Below are positions 8,488 to 37,222 of a stretch of DNA of 64,000 bases, one piece after another. Made by a program: the position numbers and the translations under genes. Origin of the DNA: Maribacter stanieri (GTDB lineage: Bacteria > Bacteroidota > Bacteroidia > Flavobacteriales > Flavobacteriaceae); the NCBI RefSeq assembly GCF_900112245.1, contig NZ_FOYX01000001.1:1-64000 (forward strand), read 5' to 3'. Position 1 is the stretch's first letter; each line of letters starts with the position of its first letter. The notes under the pieces are model-generated. The model was not told the origin of the DNA, did no database searches, and saw nothing but the letters and a program-made list of their open reading frames with translations.

Positions 8488-9879
8488 TTACGGAGTATCA
8501 TTATTTAAAAAAGAAATAGCTGGACTATCAAGATTATAATGATAAGATCTCCAGTAGAAACCAGTACCCTCAAACTCCCAAACTACTTCTTTTGCATTAG
8601 TTACTTCGATAACACCCATAGAACCAGAAGTTATCAATGTATTGCCATTATCTAAACGAATTGCTCCCGAAACTCTAGCAGAATAAAGATTATCCCTAGT
8701 GTATTGCCATACAGTTTCTGGTTCATTATTTTCATTTGGAATTAAATTCAATTCTGCCGGTAAGCTAAATTCGTAAACTACAGATTGTTTAGTATCGCCA
8801 TTTCCATTAGCATATACTAAAATATTACCAGCACCCGGCAAACCATCTTTTAAAACATTAGGGAAGTGATTATTGTAGAATAATCGTTCACCACTCTCGT
8901 TATTATAAGCCCTAGGATTTCCAAAACGATAAACTAAATCTCCACCTTTACCAAAATTACCACCTGTATCTATTATAGCTTCCTCAGCAGTTGTACTATG
9001 ATCAATAACCCAAACCTCACTAAAATAGTTTACACTTAAATAAATTAAATCTTTATTACTATCATAACTTAATCCATTTGCATGCATAATATCACCGTCC
9101 GGACCTGTTTCTTCTCTTAAAACATCTATAAAGTTGATGTTAATTTTTTCAGGGTTATCTGCCACAACACCAAAATGCGGTTTAGAACTATCAGCATCTT
9201 GAACTATATGGTCCCAAGAATCCCACTTCCAAACAATTTCATTTGTAGCAGGATTTATTTCTATTATCGATTCTGTATACACTTTTTCCTCCTCACCAAG
9301 GTAACCTATGGCATCAAGTTCATCGGGAAGTCTTAGATCCCACACTAAGGCCAATACATTTCCATTAGGCAACATTTCTACATCATGATGGATGATATGT
9401 TCTTCATTTGCCAATATAAACTCCCAATCAATTGAATTATCAGGATTTATTATTTGGATTATTCCACCAAATCCACCAAAACTAAAAGTTGGAGAATCTA
9501 CTCCCAATGACGCCAAAAGCTGACCATTTGGCATTAACTCCACATCATTACCTAAACCAAATTCTAATTGCCATTCATGAACAATTTTTGCAGAATCTTT
9601 TTCCATTAAATACACCCGATCCTCAGTAGCTTCGTTGAACAAAACATATCCTTCTTTTGACAAAGAATTATCATACAGCAAAACGCTACCTGTTTCTCCT
9701 TCCAAAGGATACACGGTTTCAACCGGAGTTTCTGTTTCAACTTCTTCCACTATTTCTTCTTCAACAACTTCTTCATTCAGCTCTTCTTGCTCTATTACCC
9801 TATCATCATCTGATGAACAAGAAATAACAAAACTTAAAAAAAAGATACTTAATACTTTAAAAACTATTTTATGTTTCAT
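8488..9879 (-). CDS. Arylsulfotransferase (ASST)-like beta-propeller lipoprotein
   Basis: A 463-residue lipoprotein with lipidated Cys21 and a very acidic linker (about 24-55, nearly all Glu/Asp/Val/Thr) before the folded domain. The body has regular blades with NDVELMPNGQLL, HHDVEMLPNGNVL, MHANGLSYD and RLDNGNTLITS, the pattern of the arylsulfotransferase propeller families (PF05935/PF14269). These enzymes move sulfate between phenolic esters and acceptors outside the cytoplasm. His residues lie in the expected blade positions (HHDVEM, MHANG), but I cannot confirm that the full catalytic set is kept, so a binding role remains possible. It lies downstream of the SusC/SusD operon, separated from it by a terminator at 9938-9973. 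Confidence 0.65.
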   Translation of the reverse strand: MKHKIVFKVLSIFFLSFVISCSSDDDRVIEQEELNEEVVEEEIVEEVETETPVETVYPLEGETGSVLLYDNSLSKEGYVLFNEATEDRVYLMEKDSAKIVHEWQLEFGLGNDVELMPNGQLLASLGVDSPTFSFGGFGGIIQIINPDNSIDWEFILANEEHIIHHDVEMLPNGNVLALVWDLRLPDELDAIGYLGEEEKVYTESIIEINPATNEIVWKWDSWDHIVQDADSSKPHFGVVADNPEKININFIDVLREETGPDGDIMHANGLSYDSNKDLIYLSVNYFSEVWVIDHSTTAEEAIIDTGGNFGKGGDLVYRFGNPRAYNNESGERLFYNNHFPNVLKDGLPGAGNILVYANGNGDTKQSVVYEFSLPAELNLIPNENNEPETVWQYTRDNLYSARVSGAIRLDNGNTLITSGSMGVIEVTNAKEVVWEFEGTGFYWRSYHYNLDSPAISFLNNDTP

Positions 9880-9937
9880 AACTAGGAATGCATTTTAAAG
9901 ATTTTGTCGTAAAACCTAAGTAAGACTTTATAATGAA

Positions 9938-9973
9938 AATAAAAAAATCAGGCTAAATTGCTTCAGCCTGATT
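9938..9973 (-). terminator. Terminator of the SusC/SusD operon
   Basis: AAATCAGGCT and AGCCTGATTT pair as a 10-bp hairpin. On the minus strand the right arm continues into a run of seven T, so it ends transcripts arriving from the lipoprotein gene at 10053-10853. Confidence 0.8.
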
Positions 9974-10052
9974 TCATATATATTATAATGATGTTTTTAA
10001 ATCATCATAAATTCAAACAATATTCAATTGTTACAGAGAAAATGTTCAAATT

Positions 10053-10853
10053 TTACTTACAATAATCAACTGTGATTAAACCTGCATCTGCGCTTTCATA
10101 ACCTCCAGCAACATTACCTTTTGGCGATATAATTTCAAATCCAATTTCACCATACTGATCTCCTGGAAAGAACCACTCGACAGATTCAGTACCCTCAGGT
10201 ATTGTAATCGTTGCAGTTCCTTCTGATCCATCATTAGGTGTACATTCGCCATCTCCTAAAAAAGTACCCGCAGCACTACCATATGGAGAACAAAGTCCAA
10301 CTTCAAATACAGTACCGTCATTTAAAGTAATGGTTAAACCAGAACCTCCAGTAGCTGCATCAGTCTGCCAGCCATCTCCATAAGAGTCAGACATATTAAT
10401 AATCCAATCGCCAGGGGTAATTGGACATTCTCTATAAAATTCTAACGCTAACGGTGAATCTTTTATGACAAGATCATTAGATCCAGTTACATCTACTAAG
10501 TTAAGCACAAGATTGGCTCTACCCTCTTCTGGTAAAGCATCAAAATTACTGGTTATAGTAAGTGTAGATCCAAAAGCACCTGCTGGAATAGTTAAACCGC
10601 TGATCGAATATTGATCTGCTGTTGCTGTAGATGAAGGATCAACCTCCACGGAAATAGTTCTTTCACTATCCGTTTTTGTAGTAACAAACACATCTACAGT
10701 TATTGATGCCCCTTCCGCAGGAGTTGGCACTAAAATAGAACTCTCTGAAAAATTGGCGAATGTTTGGCCATTTTCACTATCAAATACTATATTCTCTTCT
10801 TCACAAGAAACAAAAGCAAAAAGTACTGCTATTATTGAAATATATTTTTTCAT
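10053..10853 (-). CDS. SusC/D-operon lipoprotein with Calx-beta-like and DSYGDGW domains
   Basis: A 266-residue lipoprotein with lipidated Cys17. Residues about 25-140 resemble a Calx-beta or immunoglobulin-like domain (ADQYSISGLTIPAG, LTITSNFDALPEEGRANLVL). Residues 145-266 hold the motif DSYGDGWQT and a matching GDQYGEIGFEI segment, a small beta domain seen in Bacteroidota surface proteins, with four Cys. It begins 14 bases after the SusD-like gene on the same strand and is the last gene before the operon terminator. This is the usual place of a surface ligand-binding lipoprotein in a SusCD locus. The ligand is unknown. Confidence 0.65.
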   Translation of the reverse strand: MKKYISIIAVLFAFVSCEEENIVFDSENGQTFANFSESSILVPTPAEGASITVDVFVTTKTDSERTISVEVDPSSTATADQYSISGLTIPAGAFGSTLTITSNFDALPEEGRANLVLNLVDVTGSNDLVIKDSPLALEFYRECPITPGDWIINMSDSYGDGWQTDAATGGSGLTITLNDGTVFEVGLCSPYGSAAGTFLGDGECTPNDGSEGTATITIPEGTESVEWFFPGDQYGEIGFEIISPKGNVAGGYESADAGLITVDYCK

Positions 10854-10867
10854 AATTTATCTAATTT

Positions 10868-12307
10868 TTAGTAGCCAGGATTCTGAACTATATTTTGGTT
10901 AGAATTGATTTCAGCAATTGGAATAGGCATTTGAAATCTGAAATTATCCGCAGCTAAAGTTGGGAAATCTGGAGGTGTTCCAGAACCATCAATAATATCT
11001 CCCATAGTAGAACGCATTACAGGTTCACCACGACGTTTTAAGTCAAAGAATCTATGTCCTTCGAAAGACAACTCAACTCTTCTCTCAAATTGAATAGCAT
11101 CCTCAAGATCTTGACCTGCTTCACCACCATCATAAGCTACATATCTTAAATCTCTAAGCTCGTTAAGGGTAGATAAAGCATCTAGTCCTAACTCAAACTG
11201 AGCCTCTGCCTTATTCAATAACACTTCCTCAGCACGCAAAACCTTAATATCTACACGACCATTAACTTCACCTGTTTCTCCAAGAAACTTGGCAATTGCA
11301 TTATATTGGTTACCACTATTTTCACCGATATAAGAAATTACTCCTAATCTTAAATCATCTTCATCAATACTATTAAAGAAATCAAAATCAAAAGCATATT
11401 CCAAAACATCAGAAGCTGTAGTTTGGCTATACAAAACACCCACGTTATTACCTGTACTTTCAGATGAAGTATTAATTGCCAATTCTACCACTAAGCCTGC
11501 TTCATTTACATCAGTATACAAACCTTCAAGATCCTCAGCCGTAGCTAATTCTACATCAACTTTATTAGCAGCGTCAATTACTTTCTGATATTCTCCATTA
11601 TAAAGATATACTCTTGAAAGCAATCCGTAAACACCATTGACGTCAAGCTTGCCCTCTCCATTATCTTCACCTATTAGTTGCGCAGCTCTTTCTAAATCAC
11701 CAATAATCTCAGCGTAGTTACTAGCAACGGTTTCCCTTACTGGCTCAGCTAAAGGATCTTCTGTATCACCATCTTCGGCCTTAATATAAACAACTCCTAA
11801 AGAAGCATTTGCATCAGCAGATTGTGTAGGTATTTTTCCGTAAAATCTAACCAAATCAAAATGTGCCCAAGCTCTAATTGCCAAAGCTTGTCCTAAGATG
11901 TTATCTTTTTCAGCACCATCGGCTAAATTGTCTATTTGAGCAATCACCAAATTGGCAACATTTACGGCCTCATAAGCTTCACTCCAATAAAAATCTATTG
12001 GACCAGCTGTACTTGCTACATATCTATAATCAAAGTAAGTACTGTTTGAGGTTCTACCTGTTCTTACAAGAGTAACATTATCTGAAAGAATGTCAGGAAT
12101 ACCTTGCAATCCAGAACCTGGATCAGAATAGTAATTCCACAATTGCCTGTAAGCTCCATCTACACCGTTCTGGAATGCTGATACACTTGTAAAAAATGTT
12201 TCAGGATTTCCTTCAACAAACGGTTGCAGATCATTCAACTCATCGTCACAGGACAAAAAGAACCCGAACGAAAATAAAAGAACTAATAATTTTATGTTAT
12301 TTTTCAT
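10868..12307 (-). CDS. SusD/RagB-family surface nutrient-binding lipoprotein
   Basis: A 479-residue SusD/RagB homologue. The signal peptide ends in FFLSC with lipidated Cys20; the TPR-like helical core includes AIRAWAHFDLVRFYG near 145, a hallmark of the family, and the C-terminus has FEGHRFFDLKRRGE and the closing QNPGY. SusD proteins sit as a lid on the partner TonB-dependent channel and hand over the ligand. The gene follows the SusC-like gene by 20 bases and precedes another lipoprotein. No glycoside hydrolase, peptidase or anti-sigma gene accompanies it, so the substrate cannot be inferred. Confidence 0.93.
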   Translation of the reverse strand: MKNNIKLLVLLFSFGFFLSCDDELNDLQPFVEGNPETFFTSVSAFQNGVDGAYRQLWNYYSDPGSGLQGIPDILSDNVTLVRTGRTSNSTYFDYRYVASTAGPIDFYWSEAYEAVNVANLVIAQIDNLADGAEKDNILGQALAIRAWAHFDLVRFYGKIPTQSADANASLGVVYIKAEDGDTEDPLAEPVRETVASNYAEIIGDLERAAQLIGEDNGEGKLDVNGVYGLLSRVYLYNGEYQKVIDAANKVDVELATAEDLEGLYTDVNEAGLVVELAINTSSESTGNNVGVLYSQTTASDVLEYAFDFDFFNSIDEDDLRLGVISYIGENSGNQYNAIAKFLGETGEVNGRVDIKVLRAEEVLLNKAEAQFELGLDALSTLNELRDLRYVAYDGGEAGQDLEDAIQFERRVELSFEGHRFFDLKRRGEPVMRSTMGDIIDGSGTPPDFPTLAADNFRFQMPIPIAEINSNQNIVQNPGY

Positions 12308-12327
12308 TTCTAACTTTTTTTTTGTTT

Positions 12328-15300
12328 TTAAAATCCTACTTCAACACCAAAAGTGTAAGACCTTGTATTTGGATAGCTAAATAGGTTAAATGATCCAGGT
12401 ACGAAACCAGTATCTCCAGGCTCACCTGACTCTGCTGAACCTAAACCAACTTCTGGATCACCATTAAAATCAGTAATGGTAAATAAATTCTGTCCAGCTA
12501 CGAAGAACCTTAGAGAATTTAAGCCAATACCATCAATCATATCTCTAGGCATGTTATAATCTAAAGTAAGAGTACGTAGTCTTAAGTAATCACCCTTTTC
12601 CAAAAATCTTGTTGAAGTTTGGTCTGCATTACTTTGATATACCGGACTAGGTAACACATCAGTATCACCTGGCTGTTTCCAGTAGTTGAAAGCTTCAACC
12701 CTTTGACTGCTAGCTATGTTCCCAATAGAAATTCCTGAAGAACGTTGAAAGTTATAAATATAATTTCCGCCTTTGTAAACGAAATCACCTCTAAGACCAA
12801 AACCTTTGTAAGAGAACGCAGTGTAAAAACCACCTTCAAAATCAGCTATTGGAGATTTTCCTTCTTGTAATTGTTGAAAACTATCACTAAACTCGTTAGT
12901 AACATTCCCATCTAAATCATAATATAAAGGCTCACCGTTTGCAGGGTTAACACCAGCATATTCAACCGCATAGTAAGAATTAATTTCTTCACCAACACGT
13001 AAAATGTTATCTCCAAATGTACCAGTAACAATATCTTCACCATCAACTAACTCAACAACTTCATTATCAATAAAGGTAATGTTACCACCAAGTGTCCATT
13101 TAAAGTTTTGCGTTCTAATAACATCTCCGCTTAAAGAAACTTCAATACCTGAGTTTTCTATTTCGCCAATATTAGAGAATATAGAGTTGTTTTCATCACC
13201 TACTGTATAAGAGATAGGACGATCTAAAAGTAATTCATTTGAGTTTTTCTTAAAGTAATCCACAACACCATTTAATCTATTGTTGAACAAACCAAATTCT
13301 ACACCAACATCAAAAATAGCCTGAGACTCCCATTGAATCTGTGGGTTACCTACACCTACAGGTAAGGCAGTTGTTTGACCATTATATGTATTTGCAAAAT
13401 CTAATAAGTTCAAATATTGGAAATCACCAATATTTTGGTTACCAGAAGTACCGTAAGAAGCTCTTAATTTCAATGTATTGAAAATAGAGTTTTCCATAAA
13501 GCTTTCATTAGCAATGTTCCATGCCGCACTAGCACTATAGAAATAACCGTATTTATTATCAGGACCGAATCTTGAAGAACCATCACGTCTTACTGATCCA
13601 GATAGAATATACTTTCCATCATAGTCATAGTCCATAAATAAACCTTGAGAGAATAAAATTCTTCTAGACTCTACAGAACCAACTGTAGTTGCTTCAGCAG
13701 CTACATCTAAATAAGGAATACTCGGTGAAGGAAAACCTCTACCTGAAGCCAACAAATCCGTTGAAATGTTTTCGTTATACTCCAATAGGAAACTAGCTGA
13801 AAAATTGTGAACACCATTAAAAGTATCTGAATATGTAAACACGTTATTAACGTTATATTCAAAATCAACTTCTAACTCATCCGTCTGAGTACCCGGAAAG
13901 GCAGCAGAACCAACTATAGAATTTAATACTCCACCAGCCAAAGAACGGCTAGTTCTATTATATCTGTTACTAATCAAACCAACACTAAAATTATTTGAGA
14001 ATTTATCGCTAAAAGTCATTCCAGCAGTTAAATTCCCTATCAACAATAGATTCCTTGTATCTTCTGGCTCAGTAATCAATGCATTAGCAACTTGAAAACC
14101 TTGTCTTGTAGGATTATATACATTTTCACCTTGACTATCCGTTACTAAAGAACCATCATCATTGGTCAAAAATAAAGGCTCATAAGGATTGTAAGTGTAC
14201 ATAGCACTAATAGGATTCTGTACATTATTTCTATCTCTTGGCAAATCTGTAGTACTACGAGATACCGAAACATTCGCTCCTATATTCAACCAATCTTTAG
14301 CTTGATAATTAGTATTTAAACGAGTAGAAATTCTTTCGAAACCATCAATATTCTGAATGATACCTGAATTTTTGTCATAACCTAAAGACAAGAAATACGT
14401 TAACTTTTCGTCTCCACCAGAAATAGACAGATTATTAGATTGAATCACAGAATTTTTCAAAAGTGCTTCTTGCCAGTCGGTATCTAAAGATATCAATCTT
14501 GCAAGTTCTGCAGGTGAAGAAGTCGCACCAGGAGTACTAGTTGCAGCACCAACACCTAAAGCAGCATATTGACGCTCTAACTCTAGTTTTTGAGATGCAT
14601 TCATAACATCAAAATTATCTGGAATTTTTTCTCCAAAACCATATGATGATGAAAACTTAATTTGGGCTTCACCAGCTTTACCTCTTTTCGTAGTAATTAA
14701 AATAACACCATTAGCTCCACGAGAACCGTATTTAGAAACGGTAGCCGCATCTTTCAATATTGAGAATGTCTCAATATCACTTGGGTTCAAGTTACTAATT
14801 GGGTTAAAATCTCTTTCCGTATCAATTGGAATTGGAACACCATCAATAACATACAAAGGAGTAGTTTGTGCATTAATTGAACCAACACCTCTAATTTGAA
14901 CGAAGGCAGTATTACCTGGTCTACCGTTTGCAGCAGTTACCTGAACACCTGCAGCTTGACCTTGCAAAATGTTATCAATACTAGTAGAAGGTACAAATGC
15001 TTCAATTTTCTCAGCAGAAACTGTAGAAATTGCAGATGTAGAAAGTTCTTTAGATCTAGAACCATACCCTACAACAACAACTTCTTCCAATGCCTCAGCA
15101 TCTTCTTCTAATTGTACATTAATAGTGTTAGATGCACCAACACTCATTGTCACTGTTTTTTGACCTAGGTAAGAAAATCTTAATTTTTCACCTTGATTTA
15201 CGTTGATGGCATAGTTACCATCAAAATCTGTTTGAGATCCGTTTGTTGTTCCAACAACTACAACCGACACTCCCGGTAACGGCAAACCGCTTTGATCGGT

Positions 15301-15393
15301 TACAACACCGGTCACTGTTTTTTCCTGTGCAAAGGAAAATGTCATGAAGAGCACCAATAAAGGTGTCAACATCCACGTCAACTTCTGTTTCAT
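12328..15393 (-). CDS. SusC/RagA-family TonB-dependent outer-membrane transporter
   Basis: About 1021 residues. The signal peptide begins at MKQKLTW, which fixes the start at 15393; ten upstream codons are also open (to 15423) but would spoil the signal. A carboxypeptidase-regulatory-like domain (TGVVTDQSGLPLPGVSVVV) follows, then the TonB-box region (EEVVVVGYG), the plug with the family signature (LYVIDGVP, ILKDAATVSKYGSRGANGVILITTKRG) and a 22-strand barrel ending in SYTFGVEVGF. It imports an oligomeric ligand with the SusD-like partner downstream. It is the first gene of a three-gene operon. No clear consensus promoter is visible in the 177 bases before it. Confidence 0.95.
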   Translation of the reverse strand: MKQKLTWMLTPLLVLFMTFSFAQEKTVTGVVTDQSGLPLPGVSVVVVGTTNGSQTDFDGNYAINVNQGEKLRFSYLGQKTVTMSVGASNTINVQLEEDAEALEEVVVVGYGSRSKELSTSAISTVSAEKIEAFVPSTSIDNILQGQAAGVQVTAANGRPGNTAFVQIRGVGSINAQTTPLYVIDGVPIPIDTERDFNPISNLNPSDIETFSILKDAATVSKYGSRGANGVILITTKRGKAGEAQIKFSSSYGFGEKIPDNFDVMNASQKLELERQYAALGVGAATSTPGATSSPAELARLISLDTDWQEALLKNSVIQSNNLSISGGDEKLTYFLSLGYDKNSGIIQNIDGFERISTRLNTNYQAKDWLNIGANVSVSRSTTDLPRDRNNVQNPISAMYTYNPYEPLFLTNDDGSLVTDSQGENVYNPTRQGFQVANALITEPEDTRNLLLIGNLTAGMTFSDKFSNNFSVGLISNRYNRTSRSLAGGVLNSIVGSAAFPGTQTDELEVDFEYNVNNVFTYSDTFNGVHNFSASFLLEYNENISTDLLASGRGFPSPSIPYLDVAAEATTVGSVESRRILFSQGLFMDYDYDGKYILSGSVRRDGSSRFGPDNKYGYFYSASAAWNIANESFMENSIFNTLKLRASYGTSGNQNIGDFQYLNLLDFANTYNGQTTALPVGVGNPQIQWESQAIFDVGVEFGLFNNRLNGVVDYFKKNSNELLLDRPISYTVGDENNSIFSNIGEIENSGIEVSLSGDVIRTQNFKWTLGGNITFIDNEVVELVDGEDIVTGTFGDNILRVGEEINSYYAVEYAGVNPANGEPLYYDLDGNVTNEFSDSFQQLQEGKSPIADFEGGFYTAFSYKGFGLRGDFVYKGGNYIYNFQRSSGISIGNIASSQRVEAFNYWKQPGDTDVLPSPVYQSNADQTSTRFLEKGDYLRLRTLTLDYNMPRDMIDGIGLNSLRFFVAGQNLFTITDFNGDPEVGLGSAESGEPGDTGFVPGSFNLFSYPNTRSYTFGVEVGF

Positions 15394-15600
15394 AAAATTT
15401 GTTTTTGAATTAGCTTGCGCCAAAAGTCCAAAAATTTGCTTAGTATTCCAAAAGCTATCTTAACCCAAAAAAGTTATATGTTAAAAAAACACGTATTATT
15501 ATTTTTTTCTTTTCAAAAGGAGAAATTTGTTGAAAAAAAGACAATTATTTAACAATAAATCATTATTTAAAATTCAAAATTTTAAGTTAAAAAAAACATA

Positions 15601-28061: not shown

Positions 28062-28208
28062 AATTGACTAATTCAGAATGAAAAAATGTTTATTCCTACT
28101 TAATAGACGCCTTTCTCATGGTAATGTTACAAATAGGCTTAAGAAATTATTAACTATTTGTTCCATATATTATTTCAATCTTTGAAAAATTACCTAACTA
28201 ACTCAAAA

Positions 28209-30698
28209 ATGAAAAGAAAATTACTATTAAAATTATTACTCCTATTATGTGTTCTTGGCTACCAAAATGCCGACGCACAAATCTTTAAAAAGAAGAAAAA
28301 AGATACTGAGCAAGAAGCTGGCAAATCATCAAAAGATAAAATTCAACCTTACAATAAGGTAATTACCAAAGATGCCATAAGTGATACCGGACTTTTCACA
28401 ACACATATAGTTGATGAAAATCACTTCTTTGAAATTCCAGATTCTCTTTTCAACAAAGAAATGTTGATGGTTAGTAGAATATCGAAAACCGCTTCTGGTA
28501 TAGGTTTCGGAGGCGGAAAAATCAATACACAGGTTTTACGATGGGAAAAGAAAGATAAAAAAGTGTTGCTTCGTGTTGTATCCCATGACGTAGTTGCTGC
28601 AGATTCTCTTCCGGTACATGAGGCTGTAGTAAATTCAAACTTTGAACCTGTACTTTTTTCCTTTGACATTAAAGCTGTTCAGAAAGATTCACTGAATTCT
28701 TCAACAGTAATTGAGATCAACGACATATTCACAAAAGATACCAAAGCTTTTGGTATGCCAGAGCAGTATAGAAAACGTTATAAAGTTTCTCGTTTAGATG
28801 AAGGTAGAGGATATATTGAAACGATCAAGAGTTATCCTTTAAATGTAGAAGTACGTCACGTAAAAACATATTTGGCAAGTAATTCTCCAAGCAATTCTAC
28901 ATTGGGATCTATTTCTGTAGAAATCAACAACTCCATGATTTTACTTCCTAAAGAGCAAATGAAACGTCGTTATTTTGACGAGCGTGTTGGTTGGTTTGCC
29001 AGAGGTCAAGTAGATTATGGTTTAGATGCCCAAGAAAGTAAGACTATTAAATTTCTTGATAGATGGCGTTTAGAAGTTAAAGATGAAGACCTTGAAAAAT
29101 TTAAAAATGGCGAACTCGTTGAGCCTAAAAAACAAATCATCTACTATGTAGATAGAGCTACACCTAAAAAATGGGTGCCGTTCATTAAACAAGGTATAGA
29201 AGATTGGCAAGTTGCTTTTGAGGCTGCAGGTTTCAAAAATGCAATTATTGCCAAAGAGCCACCAACTGTAGAAGAAGATCCAGAATGGTCTCCTGAAGAT
29301 ATACGCTATTCTGTAGTGCGTTATTTAGCATCACCAATACCTAATGCTAATGGACCACATGTTAGTGATCCACGAAGTGGTGAGATATTGGAATCTGATA
29401 TTAATTGGTACCATAACGTAATGACTCTTTTAAGAAATTGGTATTTCGTGCAAACAGCGACCATAAATCCTGCTGCTAGAGGCGTTTCCTTCGATGATGA
29501 TGTAATGGGCAGGTTAATTCGATTTGTATCATCTCATGAAGTAGGACATACTCTAGGTCTGCCACATAACATGGGTAGTAGTGTTGCTTACCCTGTAGAT
29601 TCGCTTCGTTCTAAAACTTTTACAAAGAAATACGGCACCGCTCCATCGATAATGGATTATGCCCGTTTCAACTATATAGCCCAACCTGGTGATGAAGGTG
29701 TCGCATTAATGCCTGACATTGGTGTTTATGACAAGTATGCTATTCAATGGGGTTACAAGCCAATCTTGAACACTACTGCAGAGGAAGAAAAATCAATATT
29801 AGATAAATGGATTACAGCTCATAGTGGTGACCCATTATATCGTTTTGGCCATCAACAGGTAGGAGATATCGTTGACCCTAGCTCGCAAACCGAAGATTTA
29901 GGTGATGATGCAATGAAGGCAAGTGAATATGGTATTGCCAATTTAAAAAGGATTGTTCCTAAATTAATTGAATGGACAGCCGAGGATGGTAAGAACTACG
30001 AAGACCTAAATAAATTATACGGTCAAGTATTCTCCCAATTCAATAGATACATGGGCCATGTTTCCAACAACATAGGTGGGGTTTACGAAAACCATAAAAC
30101 TTATGATCAAGAAGGAGCGGTATATACTGCAGTTCCTAAAGCCCATCAACAAAAAGCAATGGCGTTTTTACAAAAGCAATTATTTAATACGCCTATGTGG
30201 ATGTTAGATCAAGATATTCTTGACCGTACAGAGTATTCAGGATTCTTAGAGCAAATGCGTTCTATGCAAGTACGTACACTTAATAATGTACTTAGCTTAG
30301 GAAAAATGGCTAGATTAATTGAATATGAAACCATAAATAAGACCGAAGCCTATACATTGGTTCAAATGATGAGCGAACTAAGAAAGGGTATTTGGTCTGA
30401 AACAAAAAGCGGCAAATCAATTGATACCTATAGAAGAAACCTTCAAAAAGCACATATTGATCGCTTGGAATACCTATTGACCGCAGAAAACCAAGCAAAG
30501 GCTTCAGATTTTGGTGGCTACAGAAAATCAACAGTTGTCAACACCAGTCAATCTGATATTAGAACTATAGCGAGAGCAGAATTAAATATTTTGAAACGAG
30601 ATATTAGAAATGCGAAAAATAGAACATATGATATGATGACAAAATATCATTACGACGATGTTTCTGAGCGTATTAACGTCATTCTTGACCCAAAATAA
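28209..30698 (+). CDS. Secreted zinc metalloprotease (DUF5117/DUF5118 type)
   Basis: About 829 residues from the Met at 28209, which opens a signal peptide (MKRKLLLKLLLLLCVLGYQNADAQ); 17 further codons upstream are open but unlikely. A Lys-rich segment follows. The catalytic motif SHEVGHTLGLPHNMGSS near residue 450 is an extended HExGHxLGLxHN zinc site of the metzincin kind, with a downstream Met-turn-like segment (SIMDYARFNY). The flanking beta regions match the DUF5117/DUF5118 arrangement common in Bacteroidota. The protein is about 830 residues, normal for the family. It probably acts in the periplasm or outside the cell; its natural substrate is unknown. Confidence 0.88.
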   Translation: MKRKLLLKLLLLLCVLGYQNADAQIFKKKKKDTEQEAGKSSKDKIQPYNKVITKDAISDTGLFTTHIVDENHFFEIPDSLFNKEMLMVSRISKTASGIGFGGGKINTQVLRWEKKDKKVLLRVVSHDVVAADSLPVHEAVVNSNFEPVLFSFDIKAVQKDSLNSSTVIEINDIFTKDTKAFGMPEQYRKRYKVSRLDEGRGYIETIKSYPLNVEVRHVKTYLASNSPSNSTLGSISVEINNSMILLPKEQMKRRYFDERVGWFARGQVDYGLDAQESKTIKFLDRWRLEVKDEDLEKFKNGELVEPKKQIIYYVDRATPKKWVPFIKQGIEDWQVAFEAAGFKNAIIAKEPPTVEEDPEWSPEDIRYSVVRYLASPIPNANGPHVSDPRSGEILESDINWYHNVMTLLRNWYFVQTATINPAARGVSFDDDVMGRLIRFVSSHEVGHTLGLPHNMGSSVAYPVDSLRSKTFTKKYGTAPSIMDYARFNYIAQPGDEGVALMPDIGVYDKYAIQWGYKPILNTTAEEEKSILDKWITAHSGDPLYRFGHQQVGDIVDPSSQTEDLGDDAMKASEYGIANLKRIVPKLIEWTAEDGKNYEDLNKLYGQVFSQFNRYMGHVSNNIGGVYENHKTYDQEGAVYTAVPKAHQQKAMAFLQKQLFNTPMWMLDQDILDRTEYSGFLEQMRSMQVRTLNNVLSLGKMARLIEYETINKTEAYTLVQMMSELRKGIWSETKSGKSIDTYRRNLQKAHIDRLEYLLTAENQAKASDFGGYRKSTVVNTSQSDIRTIARAELNILKRDIRNAKNRTYDMMTKYHYDDVSERINVILDPK

Positions 30699-31220: not shown

Positions 31221-31676
31221 ATGAAAAAATTAGTAATGGCCATATTAATAATGGCAGGCATAACCGCAAGCGCACAAGATTATAGTAAAAAAGGAAACAG
31301 AGGCGATATGAAGGATTTTACTCCAGAACAAATTGCAACTATCCAGACAAAAAAAATGACTTTGGCTTTAGACTTAAATGATTCTCAGCAAGCAAAAATC
31401 AAACAGATTCTAACTGAAGATGCGAAGACCAGAAAGGCTAAAATGACCGAAAGAAAAGCCAGTAAGGAAGAAGGTAAAAAAGTAGTGACGGCAGATGAAA
31501 AATACGCTATGGCAAATGAGCGATTAGATCATGAAATTGCACGTAAAAAAGAAATGAAATCTATACTTAATGATGACCAATTTGAAAAATGGGAAAAAAT
31601 GAGTAATAGAAAAAAAATGCGCGGTCATAACAAAGAAAGGGACGGCAAGAATGGAAAACGTACTTCTAGAGATTAA
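31221..31676 (+). CDS. DUF4890-like (Spy/CpxP-like) secreted protein
   Basis: 151 residues: signal peptide MKKLVMAILIMAGITASAQ, then a highly charged, Lys-rich helical protein with the repeated pattern FTPEQIATIQTKKMTLALDLND and LNDDQFEKWEKM. This is the DUF4890 arrangement, related in style to the LTxxQ-bearing Spy/CpxP chaperones of the periplasm. The tail is extremely basic. A chaperone or envelope-stress role is an inference from that resemblance. It is a single-gene unit with its own terminator. Confidence 0.75.
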   Translation: MKKLVMAILIMAGITASAQDYSKKGNRGDMKDFTPEQIATIQTKKMTLALDLNDSQQAKIKQILTEDAKTRKAKMTERKASKEEGKKVVTADEKYAMANERLDHEIARKKEMKSILNDDQFEKWEKMSNRKKMRGHNKERDGKNGKRTSRD

Positions 31677-31932: not shown

Positions 31933-34900
31933 ATGATAGCAAAAAAAATAGGTTATTTATCACTACTTATAGCCTTTAGCTTGTTGACCAGTTGCCAACA
32001 GGAATTATACAAGTCTAACAATAAATTTAATATTCCAGAAAAAAGTACGGAGGAGCCTCTTGTACAATTCTTAATTGAACCTACAAATTATAGCGCTATT
32101 CTTGAAACCGAGAATTTAGCAAAGGCTTTAGACTATTCCAAAATTGCACATAAAACGCTATGGGTAAATCAATTCAACGAGAAACTTAATATTTCACCGA
32201 CTACAAGAGTGATAACTGTTCACGAAACTGCTGGTTTAAGTACTACTGCCATAGATAGCCTTTTAAAATTCGTATCTAAGGGCGGAACACTTTTCGTTAC
32301 CAAAGCAGCTAAAGATGAACGTTTATCTTACTTTTTTGGAATGACACCAGATGCTGACTGGAGTACGAATAGAGAAGCATCAGGGTTGTTCTTCAATAAA
32401 GCCCTATTCCCTGGTATGCAAGGGCGTGGTTTTGATAACAAAACAGTTCACCTTGGTTTTGATGGCTCTAACTTTTCTAGTCACGTAAATGTTTTAGTAG
32501 CCGCCCACAACAACAAAAACTACCCTGTCTTAATAGAAAATAGAATAGGCAATGGAAAAGTAATTCTTTACAACTCATCTCAAATTCTAAAAAAGGAAAT
32601 GAGAGGCCTTTTATTTTCCGCAAGTTTATTAGGGCTAGAGGGTATTCCTTATCCAATTGCAAATATTGGAACTTTATTTCTCGATGATTTTCCAGCCGCT
32701 ATGTATGATGATAACGGAAAAGCCATCAACATACAAAATGGCATCAGTAAATCTGAGATGTTAAAAGCAGACTGGTGGCCTAAAATGAAGAAATTTGCAC
32801 AAGAAGAAGATATAAAATACTCTGCTTATGTAACTTTTAATGCTAATGAAAAAAACACTGGCGATGCTAATTTTAAAAGTTGGGATCAAACCGGATTATT
32901 AGATGGTAAAAATGAGAATGGCACCAACAAATGGCTTACCAACGAATTTACCAATATAGGTCATGAACTTGGTTTTCGTGGTTATAATGACCTTCCGCTT
33001 TCTAAAAAGTTATGGAAAGACACTGATCTAATTCTAGATAACGCCAAAGCTTCTGCTAATAAATGGGAAGACGATGTATCAAAAACATTACCAAGCTCAT
33101 ACGCAGCCCCAGACAATCAAATAGATAGTCTAGGTCTTATAGCTTTAAAGAAAGGTTTTCCTAGCTTAAATTTTGTACATACTTCTTTTTCAGGAGATGT
33201 TTATGAAGGTGGAAATAGAGAGTTTGACCCAGACCCATTAAACAATAGGTTTTTTGACTACCCACGTTTAAGCAGCGGATATGAAATATCCCAAAAAGAT
33301 CAATGGGCATTAGAATCTACTTACCTATATACCGGGATTTGGTCACATGTATTAAATACCAATGATATTCTAAAAATTGGAAGTACAACGAACGCTATTG
33401 GTGAACTAAAAAAGCATATTGTAGATTATAAGCGAAGACACCCTTACATGAAGTTTTTAACTGCCAAACAATCTACAGAAGCAGCTATGGACTGGCGTTA
33501 CCAAAGTATACGCCACTTAAGTTACGAGGGGCAATACGAAGTTTCCAGTTCTTTAAATTCTGACGAAAAAAAGGACTCTTATTGGCTAATGTATGTTGAA
33601 GAACATAACAATGTTAAGGTACATGAACAATTATTCTTTAACCAAGTTGAGTTTAGTTCGGTTCCTTTATTGAACGGTTTTCTGTATAGCATTAAAACCA
33701 ACACCCCAAATATTAGTGTACCAGATATTCGACCAGAAATAAGAATACTTATAGGCACAACCTCAACTTTAATTACCAATACAAAAAACGATTATAAATC
33801 GTATAATAAGAGTAAGCAAACTATGGTTCCATTAAAGCAAAAAATCGACAGATTGGTTGTGGAAGAAAAAACAGAACAGGCAACAAATTTAATGGAGAAG
33901 TTATTTAAGGATAATAAATTTATTAATGTCAAACAAATAGTTACTTATGCCGAAGGGATGGAAGCACAAGGAAAAACCGAGGAATTGTGGTCTCAATTAA
34001 ATGGCATGTACCTTAAAAATCCTTCTAGCTCTTATGCAGATTTTTCTAGAAATATTAGCACCGTAAGTAATTATCCATCGCCTGCTGTCAAAAAAATGTG
34101 GATGGAGAGACAAATGGAATGGGGACAAAATGACGTAGCTATTCTAAAAGAATATTATCAGGATTTCAATACTGACGACAACACCAAAATCATAGAACAA
34201 GTCTTAGAAGTACTATATACTTTAGAACCCACTGAAGCGAATAAATTGACCTATTACGAATTTCTAGTAAAGTCTAATTACGAAGATCTTTTGAGCAAAC
34301 TTGATGCTATTGAACCCTGCAGTATTTCTAATAAAGATTTAGCAACTTCAATTAGCCATGTCTATGCCAATAAACTAAATTTTGAAAAGGCAGAATTATG
34401 GCAAAAATGCGGGAATATTTCTCCGGAAGTTGTTAAAGAGTGGAAGGAAAAAACGAAAACTATAGCAAGCAAAAAGTTTACAGATTTCGAATATTACACA
34501 AGATACTTATTGGTCAATGATCCAGATAAGGCGGTTGAAGAATTACAGGATATTGAACCTTGTAGACCAGACCTTATAAGGATATCTAAAAATATAGCAT
34601 TATTATTTGCGCAATATACCCAATACCAAAAAGCATTAGATTGGAGTACCTGTACCAATACTATACCCATATCAAAATTGCTAGATTGGAATTTAGAATT
34701 TGCCAATGGTAGATATCTAAAGAAAGTATATGCTGACCATATAGAAAAAAATCCTAGAGATTATAAAACTATGAACCACATGGTGAAGTTGCTATTATTA
34801 AAAGGTGATGTAAACGGTGCCGGTGAAATTGCCATGAACATACCATCTTCTAAAATTGATTCTGATTTTAAAATAGCTTTTAACAATGAGGTGAAAACTG

Positions 34901-35862
34901 AATCTGACGATAAACAATCACTATACATAAGTAAATTCAAAATTCTAATGGATGATGCTATTGTCAAAAAATCAGAGATTGAAGCAAGAAAAAAGAAAGG
35001 CCATTCTATAGGTCTAACTTCTACTGCTATAGCCGATGAGTTTAACCCTACATTATTTAACAATGCTTTCAATTTTGGATTTTACAATACAAAATTAGAT
35101 TTTCATCAGTTCTCTATTGTTCAAGGTACTGCATATTCTGTTTTAAAAGACACATTGGTACCAAATGATATAGGTAGAGATTTATTGGGTGTAGAATATA
35201 TGTACAAGAAGGAATCTAACGAAAAAAGTCCGTTTTATGTTGGTGCAAAAGTAGAACTTGACAACTTCAATAAATTATTCTTTCACGTAAAAACGGGTAT
35301 AGATTTTATTGGAGACAACAACAAATCTTCTTTAGCTCTTAAAACTAATCCTGTTACTACCGGACCTGGATATGATTTAAACATCTATGATATTCAAGTT
35401 AAGGCTACGCAAGAATTTGAGTATTCCCAGAACTTGAATCACGAATTTTATGTGAAAGGAGATTATTATACAGATAGTCAATACTACGCAGTGGGCGGCA
35501 CAAGGTTAGAATACAATCTAATTAATTTAGATAAGTTTAAAATTGGCCCTTTGGCTGAAGGCGCCTATGGTGTTGGTTCTGAAGACAGAAGAAACGGATT
35601 TCCATACTGGTTAACAGAAGATAGACTTTTTGCCGGTGGAGGATTACAGTTACAGTTAGGAAATGAAGATTCAGATTTTAATCTAAAAAGTGACTTCTCA
35701 CTTTTTGCAGAACAAGACGAACCTACTTTTCAACGGTATGAAGGTGAATTGTCTTATAGAATTAAAAACTTTACTACTATCAATTTAAACTACTCTTACT
35801 TTACTATAGACCAATTTTTCTCAAATGCTGTTCAGTTGGGTGTTCAGTACAATTTCAAATAA
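31933..35862 (+). CDS. Lipoprotein fusing a DUF2194/deacetylase-like region, helical repeats and an outer-membrane barrel
   Basis: 1309 residues. Signal peptide with lipidated Cys21 (LLTSCQQ). Residues about 40-235 look like a glutamine-amidotransferase-like beta-alpha domain (KGGTLFVTKAAKDER). About 240-620 resembles DUF2194/polysaccharide-deacetylase barrels: GTLFLDDFPAAM near 250 and NIGHELGFRGYND near 341 recall the first two metal-site motifs of that fold. About 640-1010 is all-helical with TPR-like spacing. About 1030-1309 is a beta-barrel (alternating aromatic/polar strands, C-terminal LGVQYNFK). The combination recalls separate exopolysaccharide deacetylases (PelA, PgaB) and TPR-plus-porin exporters (PelB, PgaA) in one chain. 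No glycosyltransferase is nearby. The barrel and lipobox are clear; the catalytic assignment is an inference. Confidence 0.65.
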   Translation: MIAKKIGYLSLLIAFSLLTSCQQELYKSNNKFNIPEKSTEEPLVQFLIEPTNYSAILETENLAKALDYSKIAHKTLWVNQFNEKLNISPTTRVITVHETAGLSTTAIDSLLKFVSKGGTLFVTKAAKDERLSYFFGMTPDADWSTNREASGLFFNKALFPGMQGRGFDNKTVHLGFDGSNFSSHVNVLVAAHNNKNYPVLIENRIGNGKVILYNSSQILKKEMRGLLFSASLLGLEGIPYPIANIGTLFLDDFPAAMYDDNGKAINIQNGISKSEMLKADWWPKMKKFAQEEDIKYSAYVTFNANEKNTGDANFKSWDQTGLLDGKNENGTNKWLTNEFTNIGHELGFRGYNDLPLSKKLWKDTDLILDNAKASANKWEDDVSKTLPSSYAAPDNQIDSLGLIALKKGFPSLNFVHTSFSGDVYEGGNREFDPDPLNNRFFDYPRLSSGYEISQKDQWALESTYLYTGIWSHVLNTNDILKIGSTTNAIGELKKHIVDYKRRHPYMKFLTAKQSTEAAMDWRYQSIRHLSYEGQYEVSSSLNSDEKKDSYWLMYVEEHNNVKVHEQLFFNQVEFSSVPLLNGFLYSIKTNTPNISVPDIRPEIRILIGTTSTLITNTKNDYKSYNKSKQTMVPLKQKIDRLVVEEKTEQATNLMEKLFKDNKFINVKQIVTYAEGMEAQGKTEELWSQLNGMYLKNPSSSYADFSRNISTVSNYPSPAVKKMWMERQMEWGQNDVAILKEYYQDFNTDDNTKIIEQVLEVLYTLEPTEANKLTYYEFLVKSNYEDLLSKLDAIEPCSISNKDLATSISHVYANKLNFEKAELWQKCGNISPEVVKEWKEKTKTIASKKFTDFEYYTRYLLVNDPDKAVEELQDIEPCRPDLIRISKNIALLFAQYTQYQKALDWSTCTNTIPISKLLDWNLEFANGRYLKKVYADHIEKNPRDYKTMNHMVKLLLLKGDVNGAGEIAMNIPSSKIDSDFKIAFNNEVKTESDDKQSLYISKFKILMDDAIVKKSEIEARKKKGHSIGLTSTAIADEFNPTLFNNAFNFGFYNTKLDFHQFSIVQGTAYSVLKDTLVPNDIGRDLLGVEYMYKKESNEKSPFYVGAKVELDNFNKLFFHVKTGIDFIGDNNKSSLALKTNPVTTGPGYDLNIYDIQVKATQEFEYSQNLNHEFYVKGDYYTDSQYYAVGGTRLEYNLINLDKFKIGPLAEGAYGVGSEDRRNGFPYWLTEDRLFAGGGLQLQLGNEDSDFNLKSDFSLFAEQDEPTFQRYEGELSYRIKNFTTINLNYSYFTIDQFFSNAVQLGVQYNFK

Positions 35863-35878
35863 AAAAATAATCACGCAT

Positions 35879-35911
35879 AAAAAAAGAGCCTTGCATAAGG
35901 GCTCTTTTTTT
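35879..35911. terminator. Bidirectional intrinsic terminator
   Basis: AAAAAAAGAGCCTT and AAGGGCTCTTTTTTT pair with a single bulged G between the convergent large lipoprotein gene and hemL. Confidence 0.87.
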
Positions 35912-35941
35912 ATTTCTGTTATTCATATATAATCTGATTTG

Positions 35942-37222
35942 CTATAAGTCGATTTCCTTTAGTGCATTTATAGTTGCATCTAAATCTTCATAACTTAATG
36001 CATCATTTAGAAAATAACTTTCAAAGGCACTTGGAGGTAGATAAATTCCTCTTTCTAACAAACCGTGAAAATATTTCTTGAAGGTGTCGTTATCACCTTT
36101 TGCAGAAGATGCGAAATCAACCACAGGCTCATCGGTAAAATGGACGGAGATCATACTACCAAAACGATTGATTTGATGCGGTACATTTTTCTCCGTAAGC
36201 ACTTTCCCAATACCTTTATGTAAATATGCTGTTTTCTCTGCTAGACTTTTAAATACTTCCGGGGCATTGTTCAACTCGGTCAACATTGCCAAACCAGCAC
36301 TCATGGCAAGTGGATTTCCACTTAAAGTTCCTGCTTGATATACAGGACCATCAGGCGCTAGATAATCCATTATTTCTGTTCGCGCAGCAAAAGCACCTAC
36401 TGGCAAACCACCACCAATGACTTTTCCATAAGTAACAATATCAGCTTTTATATTCAATACTTCTTGGGCACCGCCTTTTCCTAAACGGAAACCCGTCATT
36501 ACCTCGTCAAATATCAATAAGATATTTTCTTGGGTACATATTTCCCGTAATCCTTTTATAAACTCATCGGTAGGCACAATGCAACCCATATTACCGGCTA
36601 TAGGCTCTATAATAATTGCAGCTAATTCACCTTTATTTGCTTGAACCAATTCTTTGACCCCAGCCAAATCATTATACGCTGCCAACAATGTATCTTTTGC
36701 CGTGCCCTGGGTAACACCTGGACTATTAGGACTACCAAAAGTTACGGCCCCACTACCCGCTTGAATTAAAAACGAATCTGAATGCCCGTGGTAGCAACCA
36801 GCAAATTTTATGATTTTGTCTTTACCGGTATAACCCCTTGCCAAACGTACAGCACTCATACAAGCTTCCGTACCGCTATTTACAAACCTTATCTTGTCCA
36901 TATTAGGCACCATAGAGATAGCTAGCTTAGCTAGCTCTGTTTCAATCTCGGTAGGCATACCAAAAGAAGTACCATTTTGCGCTTTTTCAACAACTGCTTT
37001 TATAACAGGTTCATATGCGTGACCTAAAATTAACGGACCCCAAGATGCTATATAGTCAATTAACTTATTGCCATCCTCATCAAATAAATAAGCTCCTTTT
37101 GCTTTCTTTACAAAAATTGGATCACCGCCAACGGCTTTAAATGCACGTACAGGAGAATTTACTCCTCCTGGTATATATTTTTTAGCCTCAGCAAACAAGG
37201 CACTACTTCTTTGATAAATCAT
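35942..37222 (-). CDS. hemL: Glutamate-1-semialdehyde 2,1-aminomutase
   Basis: 426 residues, a PLP enzyme that turns glutamate-1-semialdehyde into 5-aminolevulinate for heme (C5 route). Motifs: [12 protein letters not shown] at the start, [37 protein letters not shown] (PLP-binding Asp) and [17 protein letters not shown], with the Schiff-base Lys. Length is normal. It is the last of four overlapping or closely spaced minus-strand genes, 18 bases after the glucosaminidase gene. Confidence 0.97.

Follow-up and report, generated by a model that had tools for sequence, protein, structure and literature searches.

What does a protein do that joins the deacetylase, the helical scaffold and the outer-membrane exporter of an exopolysaccharide system in a single chain, in a region where no polysaccharide synthase is encoded? 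The question is posed by the gene at 31933..35862 (+) of the window, the 64,000-nucleotide stretch of Maribacter stanieri DNA analyzed here (contig NZ_FOYX01000001.1, positions 1 to 64,000). On balance, we favor the interpretation that the window copy is a disarmed and repurposed exporter-like outer-membrane protein, conducting a glycan from an unlinked, non-Pel synthase. The evidence comes from domain homology, the operon context of relatives, the loss of catalytic residues, monophyly and selection, together with predicted folds. More tentatively, and as a scenario somewhat less likely than not, the Flavobacteriaceae would possess an undescribed one-polypeptide Pel system, which Maribacter duplicated, disarmed and kept, under stronger constraint than the original, as an independent polymer-binding conduit in the outer membrane for a new glycan.

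A one-chain protein family and its pel operon

The open reading frame (ORF) is a single intact frame of 1309 residues with zero internal stops. A sequence-only reading had proposed that a lipobox, a DUF2194 half, a helical part and a C-terminal barrel lie in this one chain, and the frame, Pfam and AlphaFold2 models all bear this out. DUF2194 (PF09960) matches residues 29-556 (E = 3.9e-46; 158 bits against a curated cut-off of 30.4), as that reading had anticipated. The features of the gene are as follows.

31933..35862 (+), complete gene of an orphan PelADA-PelB-type fusion, 1309 residues (ORF, Pfam, homologue search)
31933..31995 (+), lipoprotein signal peptide with terminal LLTSC and Cys21 (sequence; lipobox-like motif in the clade)
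32038..32667 (+), N-terminal alpha/beta domain, homologous to the CBM114 of PelADA, residues ~36-245 (Pfam, alignment, model; PMC13254593)
32668..33522 (+), CE26-type deacetylase-fold domain, residues ~246-530, active-site residues missing (Pfam, alignment, model)
32680..32694 (+), MT1 motif LDDFP (250-254), base and metal Asp kept (sequence, alignment)
32977..32991 (+), MT2 motif, RGYND (349-353) replacing HGYNH, the two zinc-binding His gone (alignment)
33355..33366 (+), MT5 motif, NTND (475-478) replacing HPDD, catalytic acid gone (alignment)
33394..33399 (+), deletion site of ~25 alignment columns (the RN...LNLGW loop of the family), C-terminal to residue 488 (alignment)
33523..33729 (+), small alpha/beta module joining the scaffold, residues ~531-599 (models)
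33730..34998 (+), helical (TPR-like) solenoid, residues ~600-1022 (AlphaFold2 model)
35002..35856 (+), outer-membrane barrel with 16 strands predicted over residues 1024-1308, chain ending in NFK (model; amphipathic beta pattern)

The DUF2194 family includes PelADA of Bacillus cereus (PDB 9ZAU), described in PMC13254593 as comprising a CBM114 and a CE26 domain, and 9ZAU chain A is the sole solved relative of the window protein at E <= 0.001 (E = 1.6e-34; profile E = 3.2e-68). The phmmer alignment to 9ZAU starts in the N-terminal domain, which is confidently modeled and is identified by this homology as CBM114-type. In the 9ZAU chain, a constant offset of 25 relates the Asp-Asp pair to D262/D263, the Arg of FPRITSG to R458 and HPDD to H488/D490/D491 in the numbering of the 9ZAU paper, and thus fixes the residue mapping onto PelADA.

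AlphaFold2 was run on two overlapping pieces, residues 22-660 and 560-1309, with 37-row alignments. The first was predicted with confidence (mean predicted local distance difference test score, pLDDT, 88.0; predicted template modeling score, pTM, 0.88). The second (mean pLDDT 88.9) comprises helices over residues ~600-1022 followed by 16 strands over 1024-1308, as expected from the proposed barrel; its pTM is only 0.57, which makes the modeled position of the barrel relative to the solenoid unreliable. The PelB-type layout, a helical scaffold and then a C-terminal 16-strand barrel, is a feature of the AlphaFold2 model. Pfam matches to TPR models are weak (at most six of 37 members per model, and none for the window protein), and a profile of the C-terminal half searched against PDB sequences returned no PelB or PgaA chain, the convincing matches being repeat proteins only.

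A single-sequence search found 81 homologues, three of them partial (P0021-P0023, 758-944 residues), and a profile search found 234. An assembly fusion or a frameshift is excluded as the source of the long chain, since the same architecture recurs across Flavobacteriaceae genomes, with 153 distinct long sequences aligned. Genome loci were examined for the best 80 of 409 confirmed relatives, a set biased toward the nearest kin of the window copy. Four conserved same-strand genes lie directly upstream in 64 of these loci, the medians of their gaps ranging from −14 to 23 bases; the remainder comprise four loci cut by contig ends (with a partial set visible), two starting at a contig edge and ten orphans. 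The window copy is of the orphan type, with no linked pelF and pelG. The survey of neighbors suggested by the sequence-only reading thus revealed PelF and PelG-like genes upstream. The four genes were identified in the representative loci L012 and L055 and assigned elsewhere by clustering. They encode PelF (NF038011, E = 7.3e-46 and 3.4e-50, respectively), a PelG-like transporter (PF16933 match in 12/28 members, best E = 3.1e-13; under the cut-off in L055 and none in L012), a GH114 hydrolase (present in both scanned operons) and, between GH114 and the fused gene, a polytopic membrane protein of ~660 residues (L012:7971-9947; equivalents in 28 aligned loci). The last has no Pfam match in any of the 28 and no PDB match, and might be a stand-in for PelD/PelE; none of the operon genes scanned was named PelC, PelD or PelE by Pfam or NCBIfam. 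PelA carries an additional hydrolase domain (described in PMC7112168), a role that is probably taken by the separate GH114 gene in the Flavobacteriaceae operon. A second GH114-like protein (L012:2827-3882; TIGR01370, MJ1477/TM1410 family in L012) forms cluster 5, found in 32/80 loci: 23 of these genes are on the same strand, in many loci just 5' of pelF, and nine are on the opposite strand.

In 299 sampled Flavobacteriaceae genomes, DUF2194 exceeded its cut-off in 16 and is of the full type in 13, after exclusion of G237, G167 and G155, in which other proteins gave short matches scoring 30-33 bits. PelF exceeded its cut-off in ten genomes, all within the 13 (one, G236, with an open frame of 843 residues), and the three without PelF are Maribacter orphans. 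Given the linked pelF and PelG-like genes and the co-occurrence of DUF2194 with PelF, we take the family to be the periplasmic and outer-membrane half of a Pel-type machine, in which the PelA deacetylase and the PelB-like parts are joined in one protein; the ancestral polymer was probably Pel-like, as the gene comes last in a pelF/PelG-like/GH114 operon in relatives. In such a machine, the CBM114-type glycan-binding and CE26-type de-N-acetylase domains would feed the helical scaffold and then the 16-strand export barrel.

Active-site loss and selection in the orphan clade

Ten residues were compared in the 153 sequences; locus frames of <1100 residues, proteins of <1150 residues, 11 repeat loci and identical sequences were omitted (162 reduced to 153), and the G020 copy (L003/L097, in two pieces) and the truncated L010 stand outside both motif table and tree. 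All ten residues are present in 121/153 sequences, and P0077 has a single change, of Pro to Ser. In the orphan clade, by comparison, both His of the MT2 HxxxH motif are lost in 30/30 aligned members (R349/D353 in the window copy), the MT5 catalytic acid His is lost in 28/30 (N475 in the window copy), and a loop of ~25 columns C-terminal to residue 488 is deleted across the clade. The window copy retains the MT1 Asp-Asp pair (D251, D252) and lacks both the HxxxH zinc motif and the HPDD acid His of an active CE26 enzyme. The lipobox-like motif is present in all 30 aligned orphans and in 81 of the 122 sequences with His at both 349 and 353. The motifs cited by the sequence-only reading are found at 250-254 (LDDFP) and 343-350 (GHELGFRG), although the second, offered as a mark of a deacetylase, coincides with the broken zinc motif (HGYNH at 349-353 in the family, RGYND in the window copy). 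Its proposal of a fused deacetylase and exporter therefore holds for the family and fails for the window copy, where the active site is lost. We infer that the orphan clade enzyme is disarmed and would carry out no deacetylation, because both zinc ligands and, in nearly all members, the acid are gone. Another Maribacter homologue, P0026 from a metagenome-assembled genome, reads HGYNQ at MT2, the HPDD stretch being absent, and is perhaps a second, independent disarming; it was excluded from the per-domain rates below.

An active deacetylase and exporter with a non-canonical metal site could be argued from the residues that remain, as Asp251, Asp252, Arg445 and Pro393 are present in 30/30 aligned orphans and Asn395 and Asp478 in 28/30 each. 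The loss of both zinc His in 30/30 and of the acid in 28/30 makes this highly improbable, as does the report (PMC13254593, section 8) that Pel falls below detection in MT1 and MT2 mutants of B. cereus PelADA.

The orphan clade is monophyletic (30/30, FastTree support 1.0; ten orphans 100/100 in a 35-row maximum-likelihood tree), and the Maribacter set holding orphans and operon copies is supported at 98/97 in the latter tree. The FastTree node joining the orphan clade to L083 alone has a support of only 0.357, too low to single out L083 as the sister. Nei-Gojobori ratios of nonsynonymous to synonymous rates (dN/dS), which are rough because dS is near saturation (~1), have a median of 0.047 for 13 orphans (37 usable pairs) and 0.117 for Maribacter operon copies (18 pairs). 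By domain, with the linker module set as 531-640 and the solenoid as 641-1030, the orphan values are 0.035 (CBM), 0.043 (CE), 0.047 (barrel), 0.049 (linker module) and 0.069 (TPR). Losses of residues invariant in operon copies are concentrated in the CE domain (19/66 versus 3/54 elsewhere, Fisher p = 0.0016). On a fixed tree, the CE domain is the slowest outside the orphan clade (summed length 9.8) yet has the longest stem (0.95), whereas the CBM stem is the shortest (0.39); the stem/rest ratios are 0.097 for CE and 0.023 for CBM. Within the orphan clade, CE is relatively the fastest (within/rest 0.136, versus 0.035 for CBM). This domain-wise pattern is as expected of a protein that abandoned catalysis and retained binding. 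As judged from alignments and substitution counts, the CBM114-type domain, scaffold and predicted barrel are retained under strong purifying selection, and the zinc site, acid and active-site loop are lost.

The orphan site in Maribacter and what the protein may do

Among 36 Maribacter genomes, DUF2194 exceeds its cut-off in 18: 14 contain only the orphan, three only the operon copy, and G004 both, its two copies sharing 36% identity. The site of the orphan is bordered as follows.

31221..31676 (+), LTXXQ/CpxP-like gene 5' of the orphan, left border of the site (LTXXQ match under its cut-off)
35877..35913 (+), terminator-like hairpin 3' of the gene (three such sites found versus 2.9 expected in shuffles)
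35942..37222 (-), hemL, convergent with the orphan gene, right border of the site (annotation, border search)

All 15 orphan copies sit 3' of the LTXXQ-like gene, and 14 were traced to hemL; in L010 the contig stops inside the orphan. Borders were checked by search for the window, L087, L088, L092 and L093, and by gene clusters and an LTXXQ survey for the other ten. Nine orphan-free genomes were inspected: the site is empty in G006, G014 and G034, contains remnants in G005 and G015, and holds other sequence in G009, G019 and G033, while in G018 hemL lies outside the stretch examined. A single origin of the orphan with subsequent losses is likely. Degraded remnants of the orphan gene lie between LTXXQ and hemL in L103 and L104. 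A dedicated partnership with the LTXXQ-like neighbor is unsupported, as a relative is present in 36/36 genomes, with or without the orphan. Elsewhere in the window, 28158-30698 encodes an 846-residue DUF5118/DUF5117/DUF4953 Met-zincin metalloprotease, which is present here in orphan-free genomes too, and at 8488-15423 a SusC/SusD-type pair adjoins an arylsulfotransferase-like protein.

The orphan could also be read as the functionless, slowly decaying remainder of a pel operon that was lost, given the remnants, the empty sites and the stops in the G020 copy. We consider that explanation improbable: dN/dS is low in every domain, and the presence of orphan and operon copy together in G004 makes the orphan more than a leftover of a lost operon.

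In the window genome, rated 100% complete, neither PelG (PF16933) nor PelF (PF11997) has a match at E <= 0.001, and the same holds for the operon's own PelG-like profile, a search run without a positive control. A second DUF2194 candidate in this genome was rejected, being a weak match (E = 5.6e-4) to profile positions 54-160 only, in an 856-residue frame. Searches of 49 window ORFs against Pfam (E limits 1, 1e-5 and 1e-8) found no glycosyltransferase or polysaccharide synthase, with 11/49 lacking a listed family. The earlier remark that no synthase lies nearby is thus upheld, yet it describes a peculiarity of the derived clade, whose relatives reside in a pelF operon. The orphan as second exporter or regulator for an unlinked pel system of the same cell would suit the two copies in G004; however, a PelF match is absent in 14/15 orphan genomes (G022 and G026 being only 83% and 68% complete), including that of the window, and we give this idea very little credence.

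A different proposal takes the protein as a surface glycan receptor, adhesin or uptake pore, in which dead enzyme and CBM would bind an external polymer, such as galactosamine-rich glycans of neighbors, and the barrel would serve anchoring or uptake instead of export. In its favor, the CBM is the most constrained orphan domain, by dN/dS as by stem/rest ratio, and a GH114 match over the cut-off occurs outside pel in 8/15 orphan genomes versus 1/21 others (Fisher p = 0.0015; G004, G010, G011, G020, G025, G027, G031, G035 and G030). This count is confounded by kinship, and the window genome has no free GH114. In addition, the predicted order of solenoid and 16-strand barrel equals that of PelB (as described in PMC12141448), and the soluble domains lie N-terminal to the solenoid, in the position expected of periplasmic export parts. 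A receptor or adhesin, and likewise a barrel for anchoring or uptake, therefore appears unlikely, if less so than the alternatives above. The free GH114 genes were also followed as a route to a synthase: in L111 the gene lies between leucine-rich repeat and TPR genes, and ten ORFs (nine in L111, one in L110) include no synthase.

Under the repurposed-exporter interpretation, the orphan would be lipid-anchored at the outer membrane, its N-terminal domains holding a glycan chain on the periplasmic side and the solenoid passing that chain to the barrel without deacetylation; both cargo and direction of transport we infer. The glycan would be supplied by an unlinked synthase, which would be of a non-Pel type, as the window genome lacks a PelF or PelG match. 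Several observations weigh against this interpretation. No partner synthase was found in the window ORFs or in the ten ORFs near free GH114. The low pTM of the C-terminal piece and the near-saturated dS apply to its structural and selective arguments, and two aligned orphans retain the acid His. The gene is dispensable, occurring in just 15/36 Maribacter genomes (one copy split by stops, in G020, and one cut by a contig end), with remnants in two more. Finally, orphan residues 641-1309 have shifted toward acidity, which could reflect either another cargo or drift: the net charge of the barrel is −9.2, compared with +7.6 in Maribacter operon copies and +1.0 in all operon-type copies, and that of the scaffold is −11.2, compared with +1.2 and −9.3, respectively. 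Since one clade is concerned and its scaffold value is ordinary across the whole family, we take the shift as a hint of changed cargo only.

Comparison with known exopolysaccharide systems

In the PNAG system, the TPR-barrel exporter PgaA works with the deacetylase PgaB; these are two proteins, and the synthase differs from that of Pel. The window protein resembles B. cereus PelADA by homology over 60-522 and by the order of a binding domain before the CE domain; PelADA, in contrast, is described as a catalytic Gram-positive protein with a transmembrane helix (PMC13254593), whereas the window protein has a lipobox instead, an additional scaffold and barrel, and neither the HxxxH motif nor the acid His. 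In Pseudomonas aeruginosa, the deacetylase, the TPR scaffold and the 16-strand barrel for Pel export are likewise combined, and PelA is known to bind the TPR region of PelB and to cooperate with it (as described in PMC12141448); there, PelA and PelB are two proteins, in place of the single protein of the Flavobacteriaceae. Neither a Pel-type system of Bacteroidota, as a fusion or otherwise, nor a disarmed paralogue appears among the literature matches listed (titles and abstract starts), and the main text of each of PMC13254593, PMC7112194 and PMC7112168 has zero occurrences of the string "Bacteroid".

A fused deacetylase, scaffold and pore fixes the coupling of modification to export and renders it testable within one protein. 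With the disarmed paralogue, nature has in effect run the experiment of separating the polymer-binding and conduit roles from catalysis, which poses the question of what use a Pel-type exporter has in the absence of Pel. The nearest precedent is Zymomonas BcsZC, in which a periplasmic enzyme is fused to an outer-membrane pore; that enzyme is a hydrolase of a cellulose system instead of a deacetylase, and the portion of PMC7112194 considered here describes no disarmed orphan beside it.

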